Shown here: positions 6,419-10,973 of the stretch, one piece after another
Position numbering within the stretch: position 1 is the first letter of the stretch
Layout of the letters: every line of letters starts with the position of its first letter
DNA from: Rhodanobacter sp.
Lineage (GTDB): Bacteria > Pseudomonadota > Gammaproteobacteria > Xanthomonadales > Rhodanobacteraceae
DNA: 46,675 nt
Assembly: GCA_027307195.1 (NCBI GenBank)
Contig: DAHUXL010000177.1
Location: 1-46,675, forward strand
Direction of reading: 5' to 3'
Made by a program: the position numbers and the translations under genes
Notes under the pieces: generated by a model
What the model saw: the letters and a program-made list of their open reading frames with translations, nothing else
Databases searched by the model: none
Told to the model about the DNA's origin: nothing

Positions 6419-9118
6419 TCAGTGGATCGCGGCCGGATCCTGCTTGGCCTTGAGCGCACTGCATAGCTGGATCGATTCGCTGGTCTGCGCCAGACCGCGA
6501 TCGATGCCGGCGGCGTCCTTCAGACGCGGCTTGAAGAACGCCTGCAAGCGATCACCCTCGGCGGTGGTGCAGCTGCCGCCAGCGGCCAGCGACGGCAGAC
6601 GGCCGCCGGAGAAGCTGCCGGTGCGATCGAGGATCTGCTGGTAGTGCGCGGTGAACCACGTCCACATCGCATCACGCTGGGCTTCAGTCTCGCGACCGGC
6701 GCGCAGCAACATCGCCATCTCGCCGACCTTGACCGGTTTGGTCAGCGCGAAGTTGCGCACCTGCTCGGTCAGCGCCGGATCTTCCACGCTGGCCAGGCCA
6801 CCGAGGATGCCGTTGCGCAGGGCCGGGTCGCTGGTCTTCGGCAGCTCGGCGATCAATGCATCGACCGCGCTCTTGCCATGTTCCTGCACTGCCATGCCCA
6901 GCGCATCGCCGAGCAGGTCCGGATCGGCCGCCCCCAGATCCAGACGACCGTCCGCCTTGGGCTTGAGCGCCGCCTCACCCTGCTTGAGCAGGGCCGCACG
7001 CACTTCGGGAAGTTTGAAACCGAAGGCAAGCGCACCGGCCAGCTCGCTCCGCATCAGCGCGTTGTCCTCGGACTCGCCCGCCTTGCGCTGGTAGCCGAGC
7101 TGCTGCAGACGCGGCAGATAGGCATCCTTCGCCCATGCGGCCAGACGGGCACGCTGGGCATCGGTGACGGCTTCGTTGCGATAGATCCAGCCGACCTGAC
7201 CCAGCGGCGCGGTGGCCACCTCGCGGATCTTCGAGGCGGTCAGCGGCTGCAGCGCGGTCAGCACGTCGCCGGCATCCAGGTCACCGTGGCGGAAGCTCGC
7301 GTCGACCGCGTCGGCGTAGGCCAGCTGCTCTGCATCGCTGAGCTTGCCGACCTGCTTGACCAGACCGGTCACGCCGTCCTTGCCGAGGCTGAAACGGTAA
7401 TAGCCGCTGGCGTTCGCGTTCGGCATCACCCAGGTCGGGTTGCTGGCACCGGTCAGCTCCATCGAGCCGGTGGCCTTGTCGAGCATTTCGCAGGCGACCT
7501 TGCTGGACTGTGCTTTATCTTTGCCGTTGACGGCGGTGCCGTAGCGCACGCATACCGGCACGCCCCAGATGCGCTGCGCGTCGCCGGTGCTGCCGATCGG
7601 CAGGTAGCGGTTCTGGCTCAGCTGCAACACGGTCTTGCCGTCTTTCTGTTCCAGTTTGGTCGCAATGTACGGCACGCCGGACTGGTCGAGGAAGCTCTTG
7701 AAGGCATGCTTGAACGCGTCGCCCTTGTCGGCGGCGGTGGCGATCGAGGAGACCAGATCATCGGCGGTGGCGTTGCCGAATTTCTGCTTCTGGATATATG
7801 CGCGCATGCCCTTCTGGTAGGTCTTCTCCCCCACATAGTTCTCGAACATGGCAATGACGCTGGCACCTTTCTGATAGGTGATGCCGTCGAACGCGGTCAT
7901 GATGTCGCCATTGCCGGTGATCGGCTGGCGGATGCTGCGCGCGCTGATCAGGCTGTCGTTGCTCATCGCGCCCTGCGCACCACGCACGCGGTCGAGATCG
8001 GCGCGGTATTCCGGATGCACCTGCATCGTCACCTTCTGCTGCATCCAGGTGGCGAACGCTTCGTTGAGCCAGATGTCGTTCCACCACTCGGTGGTCACCG
8101 TGTCGCCAGTCCACTGGTGCGCCAGCTCATGCGCGTTGACGTTGAACGAGCCCTGCACGTTGCGCGCCGGCGAATCCTTGTCGATCAGCAGCAGCCAATC
8201 GCGGAACGTCACCAGGCCGGCGTTCTCCATCGCACCGGCTTCGAAATCCGGCGCGGCGAGCAGGTCGAGCTTGTCCCACGGATAACCGAAGCCGTAGTAG
8301 TTCTCCAGCGCATGGATGATGCTCGGCGTTTCGCCCAGCACATGCTGCATGCGATGCCCTTCGCCGGCGGCGGCGATGCCGCGCAGTGGCAGCGGCTTGG
8401 CACGGTACGTGTCGGGCGAGATGTCCGGTGCCTTGACGACATCCCACGGACCGACGCCGAATGCGACCAGATACGTCGGCAGCGGCAGTGTCTGCGCGAA
8501 GGTCAGCGTCTTCCAGCCCTTGCCCGCGGCGACTTCCTTCACTTGCTGGGTATTCGCCACGCCGACCTGGTCGCTGGGGATGGTCAGGCTGATGTCGAAC
8601 GGGGTCTTGAAGCCCGGCTCATCGAAGCTCGGAAACGCGAAGCGCGCGCTGATCGGCTCCATCTGCGTCATCGCGTACGGCTTGCCCTTGGCGGTGACCT
8701 TGTACAGGCCCTGCAGCTGCGCATTGAGCGGCGCGGTGTATTCAAACTTCAGGGTCAGATCCTGCGGCTTCAGCGTGCTGCCGAAATCCACCCTTACTAC
8801 GCCGGCCTTCGGGTCGGCCTCGACATATTTGCCGACATGCAGCTTGCCCGCGGCGTCGGTGATGTCCACCTTCGACACCTTGAGCGCGGAGCCATCCAGC
8901 CACAGGTGATCGGAGGCCTGGGTCAGCTTGACCTTGATCGTGGTGGTACCGGAAAAATCCTGCTGCGCCGGATCGACCTTGAACGCGATCTGATACGACT
9001 GCGGTATCGCCCAACCCGGCAAGCGACCTGTGGGCGCCTGATCGGCAGTGGCGGCAAACGCCGCGCCACAACAGGCAGCGAGTGCAGTGAGCATGAAAGG
9101 ACGGGCAAGACGGTGCAT
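6419..9118 (-). CDS. Exported M1-family metallo-aminopeptidase
   Basis: This 899-residue zinc aminopeptidase removes N-terminal amino acids from peptides, probably in the periplasm. A signal peptide (residues 1-22, ending AFA) is followed by the M1 N-terminal beta domain, the substrate-recognition motif GAMEN (295-299) and the zinc site HELAH (330-334) with the third ligand Glu353 (in LNEAFATW). A C-terminal ERAP1_C-like helical domain fills the second half. I chose the start at 9118 because it yields the signal peptide and has AGGGA upstream; the reading frame remains open far upstream into oxyR on the other strand, but that part is not protein-like. It is the ERAP/tricorn-like type rather than cytosolic E. 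coli PepN. Confidence 0.92.
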   Translation of the reverse strand: MHRLARPFMLTALAACCGAAFAATADQAPTGRLPGWAIPQSYQIAFKVDPAQQDFSGTTTIKVKLTQASDHLWLDGSALKVSKVDITDAAGKLHVGKYVEADPKAGVVRVDFGSTLKPQDLTLKFEYTAPLNAQLQGLYKVTAKGKPYAMTQMEPISARFAFPSFDEPGFKTPFDISLTIPSDQVGVANTQQVKEVAAGKGWKTLTFAQTLPLPTYLVAFGVGPWDVVKAPDISPDTYRAKPLPLRGIAAAGEGHRMQHVLGETPSIIHALENYYGFGYPWDKLDLLAAPDFEAGAMENAGLVTFRDWLLLIDKDSPARNVQGSFNVNAHELAHQWTGDTVTTEWWNDIWLNEAFATWMQQKVTMQVHPEYRADLDRVRGAQGAMSNDSLISARSIRQPITGNGDIMTAFDGITYQKGASVIAMFENYVGEKTYQKGMRAYIQKQKFGNATADDLVSSIATAADKGDAFKHAFKSFLDQSGVPYIATKLEQKDGKTVLQLSQNRYLPIGSTGDAQRIWGVPVCVRYGTAVNGKDKAQSSKVACEMLDKATGSMELTGASNPTWVMPNANASGYYRFSLGKDGVTGLVKQVGKLSDAEQLAYADAVDASFRHGDLDAGDVLTALQPLTASKIREVATAPLGQVGWIYRNEAVTDAQRARLAAWAKDAYLPRLQQLGYQRKAGESEDNALMRSELAGALAFGFKLPEVRAALLKQGEAALKPKADGRLDLGAADPDLLGDALGMAVQEHGKSAVDALIAELPKTSDPALRNGILGGLASVEDPALTEQVRNFALTKPVKVGEMAMLLRAGRETEAQRDAMWTWFTAHYQQILDRTGSFSGGRLPSLAAGGSCTTAEGDRLQAFFKPRLKDAAGIDRGLAQTSESIQLCSALKAKQDPAAIH

Positions 9119-9255
9119 GGAGATTTCCCTGGGACGATGGAGAATCCCCACGCTAGAACCGCCATGACCATCGACCCAGTGCCAGAAGGCACAGGCGCCA
9201 CGCCCAAGGACACACTTCGACCCGGTGCAATGGCCGCTTGCAATGGTCAGGGCAC

Positions 9256-9290
9256 AAAAAAACCGGCGACGAAGTTGACTTCGCCACCGG
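9256..9290 (-). terminator. Intrinsic terminator of the candidate small RNA
   Basis: On the minus strand a 12-bp stem (CCGGTGGCGAAG / CTTCGTCGCCGG, two G-U wobbles, loop TCAA) is followed by seven T. The wobbles pair only in the minus-strand RNA, which supports minus-strand function. No protein gene ends just upstream of it on that strand. Confidence 0.8.
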
Positions 9291-9361
9291 CCGGGGAAGC
9301 CCGCGCGCCTGCGGGGGAGAGGGAGGGGACTCCGACGCGCGGGGTGTTGCGAGCAGTACGT
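9256..9361 (-). ncRNA. Candidate OxyR-controlled small RNA (OxyS-like arrangement)
   Basis: A short minus-strand transcription unit diverges from oxyR. A promoter (TTGGAG, 18 bases, TATCAT) at 9397-9368 predicts a start at A 9361. The unit ends at an intrinsic terminator with seven T at 9262-9256, giving about 106 nt. The predicted RNA has a first stem (9336-9343 with 9300-9307, 8 perfect base pairs) holding a 28-nt loop very rich in C and U, then the terminator hairpin. The C-rich loop could pair with purine-rich Shine-Dalgarno sequences, as is known for the C-rich loops of Xanthomonas sX13. Position, size and the OxyR site match E. coli oxyS (about 109 nt), but I see no clear sequence similarity to OxyS. 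Expression is inferred, not shown. Confidence 0.55.
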
Positions 9362-9367
9362 ATGCAC

Positions 9368-9397
9368 ATGATAGGACCCGCACTTGTATTGCTCCAA
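9368..9397 (-). promoter_or_regulatory. Predicted sigma-70 promoter for the candidate small RNA
   Basis: On the minus strand, TTGGAG (9397-9392) and TATCAT (9373-9368) are separated by 18 bases. The weak -35 is typical of activator-dependent promoters. The OxyR-type site ends where the -35 begins, so OxyR would sit at about -36 to -72. Confidence 0.5.
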
Positions 9398-9433
9398 TTG
9401 ATTGTTACCATCCCAGCCATAGCGCGAGCCTAT
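9397..9433. promoter_or_regulatory. OxyR-type operator between oxyR and the small RNA
   Basis: Two 15-bp units are spaced by exactly 7 bp, as in the known OxyR motif (ATAG-N7-CTAT, 7 bp, ATAG-N7-CTAT). The oxyR-proximal unit (9419-9433) has perfect ATAG and CTAT ends. The distal unit (9397-9411) reads ATTG...CCAT with one mismatch in each end. I count 15 of 20 consensus positions over the pair. The site lies 22 bases before the oxyR start codon, where binding would repress oxyR and activate the divergent promoter. Confidence 0.65.
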
Positions 9434-9454
9434 TGTGCGTAACCGGGACGATCC

Positions 9455-10426
9455 ATGAATCTCCGTGATCTCCAGTATCTGGTTGCCCTTGCCGAACATC
9501 GGCACTTCGGGCGCGCCGCCGAAGCCTGCTTCGTCAGCCAGCCGACCCTGTCCACCCAGATCAAGAAGCTGGAGGACGAACTTGGCGTGCCCTTGGTTGA
9601 GCGCACGCCGCGCAAGGTGCTGCTGACCGAAGTCGGCCGCGACATCGCGATCCGCGCACGCGACGTGCTCAACCAGATCGATCAGATCCGTGGCGTGGCC
9701 AGGCGCACGCTCGACCCGGAATCGGGCACGGTGCGGCTGGGCATCTTCCCCACGTTGGGGCCATACCTGTTGCCGCATGCGCTGCCACTGGTGCGTGCCG
9801 CGTTCCCCAGACTGGAACTGCTGCTGGTCGAGGAAAAAACCGAGGCAGTGCTGCGCCTGTTGCGCGAGGGCAAACTGGATGCCGGCATCCTCGCGCTGCC
9901 GCTGCATGAGGACAGCCTGCACAGCGAGTTCCTGTTCGAGGAACCCTTTCTACTGGCGGTTTCGGACGAGCACGCACTGGCGCACAAGCAGGGTCAACTG
10001 AAACTGGCCGACCTGACCAACCAGAATCTGCTGTTGCTGGAAGACGGCCATTGCCTGCGCGATCAGGCACTCGAGGTATGCCACATGGCGGGTGCCGGCG
10101 AACACAGCGGCTTCCGCGCCACCAGCCTGGAGACGCTGCGACAGATGGTGGCGGCGAACGTCGGCATCACCCTGCTGCCGGTGACGGCAGTGAAGCCGCC
10201 GGTAGCGCAGGTCGAGGGACTGCACCTGATCGAGTTCAAGGGCCATCCACCGAGCCGGCGCATCGCCATGGTCTGGCGCAAGAGTTCGGCGATGACCGGG
10301 TTTCTCAAACAACTCGCCGACGTCTTCCGGCAACTGCCCGCCGACCTGTTGGATGCCCACACGGCGGCCACACCAACGCTGGCGAAAACGGCAACGCCAG
10401 CGCTGCGCAAGACCACCCGCCGATAG
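9455..10426 (+). CDS. oxyR: Hydrogen-peroxide-sensing LysR-type regulator OxyR
   Basis: OxyR senses peroxide by forming an intramolecular disulfide and then activates antioxidant genes. The 323-residue protein has the LysR-type helix-turn-helix at residues 1-60 (MNLRDLQYLVALAEHRHFGR onward) and the substrate-binding-like effector domain. The redox pair is Cys200 (in DGHCLRDQAL) and Cys209, with the same 9-residue spacing as Cys199/Cys208 of E. coli OxyR. The threonine/arginine-rich tail after residue 300 is longer than usual. The stop codon lies inside a second OxyR-type site that fronts the rubrerythrin gene. Unlike Xanthomonas, where oxyR sits with ahpCF, no ahp genes are next to it here. 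Confidence 0.93.
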   Translation: MNLRDLQYLVALAEHRHFGRAAEACFVSQPTLSTQIKKLEDELGVPLVERTPRKVLLTEVGRDIAIRARDVLNQIDQIRGVARRTLDPESGTVRLGIFPTLGPYLLPHALPLVRAAFPRLELLLVEEKTEAVLRLLREGKLDAGILALPLHEDSLHSEFLFEEPFLLAVSDEHALAHKQGQLKLADLTNQNLLLLEDGHCLRDQALEVCHMAGAGEHSGFRATSLETLRQMVAANVGITLLPVTAVKPPVAQVEGLHLIEFKGHPPSRRIAMVWRKSSAMTGFLKQLADVFRQLPADLLDAHTAATPTLAKTATPALRKTTRR

Positions 10427-10459
10427 CTGCAAGCTATGCACCCCATCTAGACAATCAAT
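10423..10459. promoter_or_regulatory. OxyR-type operator in front of the rubrerythrin gene
   Basis: The first unit (10423-10437, ATAGCTGCAAGCTAT) matches every defined base of the consensus ATAGnTnnnAnCTAT. A degenerate second unit (10445-10459, ending CAAT) follows after a 7-bp spacer. It overlaps the oxyR stop codon. A weak promoter, TTTCAT (10459-10464), 17 bases, TTACGC (10482-10487), begins where the operator ends, the same geometry as at the small-RNA promoter. Confidence 0.6.
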
Positions 10460-10466
10460 TTCATCG

Positions 10467-10499
10467 TTGACCCGCCGGGCGTTACGCTCGGCGGGTCAA
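10467..10499. repeat. Long GC-rich hairpin upstream of rubrerythrin
   Basis: TTGACCCGCCG and its inverted copy CGGCGGGTCAA bracket a short loop. There is no T run on either side, so it is not a standard intrinsic terminator. It could cap the 3' end of the oxyR mRNA or lie in the rubrerythrin promoter region. Confidence 0.55.
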
Positions 10500-10553
10500 G
10501 ACCGCAAGGCCGACTCGCATTTTCCTCCCAGCCACACGCCACGAGGTGATGTC

Positions 10554-10973
10554 ATGAGCAACCTGAAAGGCTCCCGGACCGAGCAGAACCTGAAAGACGC
10601 CTTTGCCGGCGAATCGATGGCCAACCGCCGCTACCTCTACTTCGCCGCCAAGGCCGACGTCGAGGGTTACAACGATGTCTCCGCGGTATTCCGCTCCACC
10701 GCCGAAGGCGAGACCGGACACGCGCACGGCCATCTGGAATATCTGGAAGCCGTCGGTGATCCCGCCACCGGCCTGCCGTTCGGCGAAACCCACCTGAACC
10801 TGAAAAGCGCCATCGCCGGCGAAACCCACGAATACACCGACATGTATCCGGGCATGCACAAGGCCGCGCGCGAAGAAGGCTTCGACGAAATCGCCGACTG
10901 GTTCGAGACCCTGGCCAAGGCCGAGCGCTCGCACGCCAACCGTTTCACCAAGGCGCTGGGCGATATGGGCTGA
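10554..10973 (+). CDS. Short rubrerythrin-family diiron protein
   Basis: A 139-residue ferritin-like four-helix protein. It carries two diiron half-sites: Glu20 with Glu53-x-x-His56, and Glu90 or Glu93 with Glu124-x-x-His127. It lacks the C-terminal rubredoxin domain of classical rubrerythrins, so electrons would have to come from another protein. Rubrerythrins reduce peroxide. The start at 10554 has GAGGTG upstream. The gene lies just after oxyR with an OxyR-type operator between them, and before an iron-sulfur protein and DUF3501 gene. This three-gene grouping recurs in proteobacteria and suggests a shared redox role. Confidence 0.9.

Follow-up and report, generated by a model that had tools for sequence, protein, structure and literature searches.

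The oxyR region of the window

The DNA stretch analyzed here, referred to as the window, comprises 46,675 nucleotides of a Rhodanobacter draft genome. On its plus strand, positions 9455 to 10426 encode the divergent regulator of the locus, oxyR, the best NCBIfam match of which was NF008361 (OxyR) with 323.8 bits and thereby just under the cut-off of 329. The gene product contains two cysteines within GHCLRDQALEVC, which we take to be the redox pair known from E. coli OxyR. In front of oxyR lies an OxyR-type operator (9397 to 9433, minus strand) consisting of two 15-bp units separated by a 7-bp spacer, which reads ATAGGCTCGCGCTAT-GGCTGGG-ATGGTAACAATCAAT on the minus strand from 9433 to 9397. 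It is followed on the same strand by a predicted small RNA of about 106 nt (9256 to 9361) and by an aminopeptidase N-like gene (6419 to 9118; TIGR02412, 279.3 bits, under the cut-off of 591.2).

The operator is supported by its genome-wide rank, by shuffles and by its conservation. Using a strict OxyR core, presumably ATAG-N7-CTAT-N7-ATAG-N7-CTAT, and allowing up to three mismatches, positions 9397 to 9433 were the best place in the 3.46-Mb draft genome (two mismatches), followed by two places with three mismatches each (10423 to 10459 and, on contig C34, 46397 to 46433), while the reversed control pattern yielded one match per strand. Within the window the strict pattern matched twice, compared to 0.00 matches in 100 shuffles. 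A second pattern, which was loosened (R, W) to fit positions 9397 to 9433, gave zero mismatches there, a result that is not independent as the pattern was fitted to this very site. As the reversed control of the loosened pattern had two matches, the weaker OxyR-type sites are near chance and their support is one of position. In relatives bearing the RNA or ahpC the operator is kept. The site at 10423 to 10459 (plus strand) is situated where oxyR ends and precedes a rubrerythrin-like gene (10554 to 10973; NF045767, 130.6 bits, under the cut-off of 200) by about 95 bp.

The first-pass annotation had described an OxyR-type site next to a minus-strand promoter (TTGGAG-N18-TATCAT) with a start at 9361 and a terminator ending at 9256, giving a transcript of about 106 nt. 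This architecture could be confirmed from the sequence, with the operator overlapping the -35 hexamer by one base: the first T of TTGGAG (9392 to 9397) is the last base of the operator, and the -10 hexamer TATCAT (9368 to 9373) follows at a spacing of 18, which leads to a predicted +1 at 9361. TTGGAG shares three of six positions with TTGACA, and a stricter generic promoter scan of positions 8200 to 10800 listed no promoter; the minus-strand promoter draws its support from conservation. At the -35 place relatives carry TTGGAG, TTGGAA, TTGAAC and a few others.

Predicted structure and covariation of the RNA

The predicted RNA is supported by its fold, by a covariance model and by covariation. 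The 106-nt strand folded with -47.2 kcal/mol (z-score -3.29), a value which none of 200 shuffles reached, and over seven single folds of six loci the z-scores ranged from -3.29 to -6.38. Two elements make up the fold. Hairpin 1 (9300 to 9343, minus strand) has a 10-bp stem with the arms 9343 to 9334 and 9309 to 9300 and encloses the C-rich, anti-Shine-Dalgarno-like loop GGAGTCCCCTCCCTCTCCCCCGCA (9310 to 9333), the proposed target-pairing site. The second element is an intrinsic terminator (9256 to 9292, minus strand), formed by a hairpin from 9292 to 9261 with a stem of 14 pairs and a T run to 9256. Hairpin 1 and the location of the element behind ahpC in relatives, described below, go beyond the first-pass annotation. 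Over the sequences compared the loop of hairpin 1 varies in length from 12 to 37 nt and contains a pyrimidine run, and CUCCC or CCUCC was found in 50 of 51 distinct RNA sequences. The covariance model scored 87.3 bits at positions 9256 to 9355, the window being one of its 31 training rows.

Of the alignments used, A1 does not include L037, L039, L046, L054 and L093, and L100 is also absent from it. A3 comprises 35 of the 37 RNA-bearing loci described below (without L054 and L100) and 20 loci from other genomes, several of them from the same strains, which amounts to 55 rows, 51 of them distinct. In the model-fitted alignment with 51 distinct rows 94.5% of the cells were paired, and changes on both sides were found in 15 of 22 pairs (101 cells), compared to 9.1 pairs and 19.3 cells in shuffles and to at most 7 pairs and 14 cells in slid structures. 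These changes affect six of ten pairs of hairpin 1 and nine of twelve pairs of the terminator. For a plain MAFFT alignment with 31 rows RNAalifold predicted 13 pairs, of which eight exhibited changes on both sides, seven of these in the terminator. As only four pairs of hairpin 1 are predicted from the plain alignment, this hairpin leans on the model-fitted alignment and on the single folds.

No family of Rfam 15 matched the RNA, the window yielding only a tRNA at the gathering score. Between 9230 and 9470 (E ≤ 10) weak matches to HOTTIP_1, Scr3202, anti-hemB and SAM-SAH appeared, which were dismissed as they were far below the gathering scores. Neither search gave a match to OxyS, which agrees with the earlier remark that the candidate lacks similarity to the OxyS sequence.

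Relatives with and without ahpC

For a comparison, 81 oxyR loci were used, namely the window and the best 80 of 432 confirmed relatives. In 37 of the 81 the RNA was present on the expected strand (covariance model E ≤ 2.9e-5); 31 of these loci had trained the model and six had not. Weak matches on the expected strand in L087, L051 and L107 (E 0.0014 to 0.086) were scored as absent. An AhpC-type peroxiredoxin gene is divergent at the operator in 32 of the 81 loci, 20 times with the RNA behind it and 12 times without; its best NCBIfam match was TIGR03137 (AhpC) with 155.2 bits, under the cut-off of 272. The 37 RNA-bearing loci therefore comprise 20 in which the RNA follows ahpC and 17, including the window, which lack ahpC (RNA-only loci). 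The first base of the RNA stem is located 2 to 53 nt past the ahpC stop codon in 19 loci and 125 nt past it in L100. In these 20 of the 81 loci, all of them from relatives, the element thus follows a coding gene with which it has the terminator in common, whereas ahpC is absent from the locus of the window. The window RNA and the element behind ahpC are, as judged by this comparison, of common descent.

The remaining 32 of the 81 loci contain neither ahpC nor the RNA (neither-loci). One of them, L096, can be placed in this group only provisionally, as its contig ends some 206 nt away from the start codon of oxyR. In another one, L068, a catalase-peroxidase gene occupies the place of ahpC beside oxyR (divergent strand, 2 to 1369; NF011635, 780 bits; truncated where the stretch ends). 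Two Rhodanobacter loci, L047 and L051, have kept ahpC with a different spacer behind it and without the C-rich RNA, which represents the opposite loss.

The sequences of the hairpin 1 loop also bear on the idea that the RNA binds a protein rather than mRNAs, for example an RsmA/CsrA-type regulator via a GGA in the loop. In many sequences from Rhodanobacter the loop has a GGAG on its 5' side, and an mRNA-derived RNA sequestering RsmA has been reported in Xanthomonas (PMC7694677); ahpC and oxyR, searched for as words, do not appear in that article. However, loops without GGA occur in two Luteibacter loci (L074, L078) and in the ahpC-bearing Dyella-clade loci L055, L056, L059, L061 and L065, while almost all sequences have the C-rich run. 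Protein binding as the task of this RNA appears very improbable to us.

Retention of the promoter

Operator and promoter were compared between RNA-only loci and neither-loci. The core of the first half-site was complete (8/8) in all 17 RNA-only loci and averaged 6.4/8 in the 32 neither-loci. Compared to the letters of the window, the second half-site had a median of 15/15 in RNA-only loci and a mean of 8.0/15 in neither-loci; as the window's own sequence was the reference here, which favors near relatives, the test was repeated with the bare OxyR core. The means were then 13.8/16 for RNA-only loci and 10.4/16 for neither-loci (Mann-Whitney p 8e-9, a value that is too optimistic because the loci are related). 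All 17 RNA-only loci had a -10-like hexamer at a spacing of 16 to 18, compared to 4 of 32 neither-loci of the same set (window and best 80 of 432). With a rule independent of the window, such a hexamer occurred in 17 of 17 RNA-only loci, 19 of 20 loci with ahpC and RNA, 11 of 12 loci with ahpC only and 3 of 32 neither-loci, or in 1 of 30 of the latter once L096 and L068 were removed. These numbers suggest that the divergent promoter tends to persist where something remains to be transcribed.

Operator, promoter, RNA and terminator are conserved together, which supports the earlier proposal of an OxyS-like control logic, i.e., an OxyR site common to oxyR and a divergent short RNA. Conservation of promoter and terminator wherever oxyR is kept holds for the RNA-bearing loci, but not beyond them, as many Dyella and other relatives retain oxyR without the RNA and without the promoter. 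The RNA is therefore not universal.

It could be argued that since the loss of ahpC and ahpD the RNA itself is idle, the operator being kept only for the autoregulation of oxyR and the terminator for stopping divergent transcription. Indeed, the operator may also serve oxyR, a strong promoter without a gene requires a terminator, and the target searches described below found no target. Against such a relic speaks that the -10-like hexamer, ubiquitous in RNA-only loci, is rare in neither-loci by either rule, though oxyR is kept there. Furthermore, a C-rich loop is needed for neither of the two tasks, yet all 23 distinct RNA-only sequences contain CUCCC or CCUCC, and the stem of hairpin 1 covaries over the whole set. 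We consider an idle RNA unlikely.

Gene order and gene content

In all seven ahpC-bearing loci for which longer stretches were compared, the order on the side divergent from oxyR is ahpC, RNA and ahpD. An aminopeptidase gene follows ahpD in four of them (L172, L174, L176 and L177); the other three had no aminopeptidase match behind. In the window, as well as in L179 and L180 (genomes G015 and G021), the RNA is directly followed by the aminopeptidase gene. Compared to L172, L174, L176 and L177, the arrangement of the window thus reads as one that has lost the flanking gene on either side but still has the RNA.

This order also speaks on whether the predicted RNA might be a regulated leader (attenuator) of the aminopeptidase gene instead of a free RNA. 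On the minus strand the aminopeptidase gene comes directly after the RNA, but a strong intrinsic terminator lies between the two, ahpD intervenes in the four relatives, and a 29-base element at 9163 to 9191, which is unique in the genome, may be the aminopeptidase gene's own promoter region. We regard a leader as extremely improbable. The element in question, TGCCTTCTGGCACTGGGTCGATGGTCATG (minus strand), is located before the aminopeptidase gene, found nowhere else in the genome at up to three mismatches and possibly a promoter or operator; its first 15 bases, in a relaxed form, recurred upstream of the gene in all but one of the 17 RNA-only loci and in 14 of 32 neither-loci.

On the level of whole genomes, a drawn sample of 197 genomes of the family was searched for the RNA with a threshold of at least 44 bits, which was reached in 46 genomes. 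While 25 of these 46 contained an orthologous ahpC (73 to 100% identity), the other 21, including the window's own genome, exhibited only an AhpC paralog with 36 to 41% identity, and at 1e-30 none of these 21 had a match for ahpD. Within the window's genus, 16 of the 17 genomes of this draw contained the RNA and three contained ahpC, the same three also having ahpD. The single genome of the genus without the RNA in this draw, G189, also has no ortholog of the relatives' ahpC. The absence of a gene from the window's assembly alone would be weak evidence, as this assembly is 90% complete, but the other 20 genomes with RNA and without orthologous ahpC are listed as 99 to 100% complete. The counts over 81 loci and over 197 genomes are not independent of each other as many genomes are from the same strains. 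A draw of 200 genomes across the order gave matches at 1e-4 in 23 genomes, of which 18 belong to the family; the five matches outside of it scored 29 to 39 bits.

The window's genome has kept an E. coli-type AhpC (TIGR03137, 348.5 bits, over the cut-off of 272), which may have rendered the AhpC/AhpD pair dispensable. Its gene is located on contig C102 (L111:1042-1605). On the same contig, a weak OxyR-type site (C102:9652-9688), seen only with the loosened pattern, lies 65 bp before the AhpC start codon.

Number and direction of changes

A tree of the 81 oxyR sequences, the root of which was not inferred, requires at least nine changes of the RNA-only state, seven of them forced by well-supported branches. 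Such a tree counts changes and cannot tell a gain from a loss, and the count could be too high if the locus has undergone recombination. Several events would agree with the different types of promoters and leaders: the main Rhodanobacter set has a TTGGAR-N18 promoter with 15 to 24 nt from the -10 hexamer to the stem, while L039 and L072 combine TTGAAC-N17 with a distance of 51 to 57 nt, which increases to 77 nt in L054 and to 103 nt in L110. Remnants of ahpC were sought in the long leaders of L039, L054, L072 and L110, with no clear match.

As the tree gives changes without a direction and as RNA-only loci are interspersed among ahpC-bearing ones in Rhodanobacter, the RNA-only arrangement could in principle be ancestral, with peroxidase genes having entered around the RNA later, once or several times. 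However, ahpC is found at the same place outside of Rhodanobacter and Dyella, i.e., in Rudaea, Tahibacter, Pseudolysobacter, Dokdonella (L100), Pinirhizobacter and Luteibacter. Moreover, each such event would require an insertion of genes on either side of the RNA, unless the RNA moved together with them. An ancestral RNA-only state therefore seems quite improbable. Two observations lead us to infer loss as the direction, namely that more distant relatives have the ahpC arrangement and that the RNA sits between the two genes which are missing. The lineage of the window, and apparently several further ones, would have lost ahpC and ahpD while keeping the RNA. The RNA may in turn be younger than the ahpC arrangement, as seven of the twelve loci with ahpC but without RNA fall in one single clade of 14 rows away from Rhodanobacter and Dyella.

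Comparison with known systems

The nearest known system in wiring, albeit not by sequence, is OxyS of E. coli and its relatives, presumably represented by Rfam family RF00035. OxyS is transcribed divergently from oxyR, its operator touches the -35 element, and it is about 110 nt long and ends at an intrinsic terminator. As far as the sequence tells, the RNA of the window is likewise divergent from oxyR behind a common OxyR-type site; here too the operator touches the -35 hexamer, and the predicted RNA has a similar length and an intrinsic terminator. Unlike OxyS, it occurs in a different bacterial family, its parent gene is an AhpC-type peroxiredoxin gene followed by ahpD, its conserved part is a C-rich hairpin, and ahpC-bearing and RNA-only forms coexist within one genus. 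OxyS is reportedly also the subject of Krieger et al. 2022 (Mol Biol Evol 39:msac020), and if that study does concern OxyS, the window would represent a second run of the same route, with another peroxidase gene, in another family, apparently repeated and with both forms still alive. PMC11975290 cites Krieger et al. 2022 as a reference for OxyS. Among the literature matches listed, none named an sRNA from an ahpC 3' UTR or a Rhodanobacter sRNA beside oxyR.

With respect to the loop, a comparison can be made with sX13, the host of which belongs to the same order as the window's organism. This RNA of Xanthomonas is highly structured, has exposed C-rich loops and is reported to act without Hfq as a repressor of mRNAs in which G-rich motifs lie close to the start codon (PMC3771888). 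The window RNA also has a predicted exposed C-rich loop on a stable stem, but sX13 exhibits three C-rich loops compared to one C-rich hairpin and a terminator hairpin here, and the word 'oxidative' is absent from the text on sX13 (PMC3771888).

A third group for comparison are sRNAs from the 3' ends of mRNAs, for example SorX and s-SodF, as covered in a review (PMC9438474). In relatives of the window the element likewise closes a stress-gene cistron at its 3' end and brings its own terminator, whereas in the window no coding gene is left and the promoter serves the RNA alone. At the MalH/MicX locus, according to the review, a processed form exists alongside a promoter-driven one, and the passages considered here describe no comparable loss of a gene (PMC9438474).

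A further C-rich hairpin came up in four genomes of genus g24 (L181 to L184). Its loop is almost identical to that of the window RNA (GGAGAUCCCCCUCCCUCC in L181 and L184), and together with a terminator it is located behind a similar coding sequence, e.g., at L184:1355-1437. The gene preceding it in L184 encodes a phasin (PF09361). That these matches of the model represent the same locus was ruled out, as they follow a phasin-like gene and thus lie at a different locus; possibly they are another C-rich 3' UTR RNA.

Proposed function and implications

Taken together, the RNA of the window is, with a probability of roughly 0.7, an OxyR-activated sRNA which derives from a 3' UTR element of ahpC, has outlived ahpC and ahpD and pairs with mRNAs via its C-rich loop. 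That the RNA and its apparently peroxide-controlled promoter were kept after the peroxidase genes had vanished hints at a separate function of the RNA. In the ancestral form the same operator and promoter would have driven ahpC, with the RNA element located between ahpC and ahpD as it is in relatives. In the present form oxidized OxyR would bind to positions 9397 to 9433 and recruit RNA polymerase to the adjoining minus-strand promoter. The resulting transcript of about 106 nt would end at the intrinsic terminator, and free RNA would accumulate, as the conserved signals lead us to expect. By analogy with sX13 of Xanthomonas, the C-rich loop would most likely pair with G-rich Shine-Dalgarno regions and thereby lower the translation of its targets under peroxide.

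A genome-wide search for complements of the loop core (up to three mismatches) yielded 18 places, one of them being the RNA gene itself, compared to 20 for the reversed control, and no target was found. Of the 17 non-self complements, four had an open frame of at least 60 codons starting within 22 nt and were judged spurious by eye. Duplex energies were also calculated for six local 5' regions, of which that of the aminopeptidase gene looked strong with -24.7, a value that one of 50 mechanical ORF starts reached as well. The aminopeptidase gene was rejected as a target: where its start was found, the median energies were -16.8 in RNA-only loci (16 of 17) and -15.0 in neither-loci (17 of 32; p 0.71).

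Beyond this locus, it appears reasonably probable to us that peroxide-responsive sRNAs arise repeatedly, in that the 3' UTR RNA of an oxyR-divergent peroxidase gene inherits the OxyR promoter after the gene is lost. In Rhodanobacteraceae this would have happened several times from an ahpC mRNA, independently of the enteric OxyS, and the ancestral form would still exist beside the derived one. The family would then gain an OxyR-controlled sRNA without any match in Rfam 15, and in several lineages the RNA, and not the peroxidase, would be the lasting product of the operon. As close relatives hold ahpC-bearing and RNA-only forms side by side, the birth of stand-alone sRNA genes, i.e., their origin, the change in promoter distance and the acquisition of targets, would thereby become testable in culturable soil bacteria.
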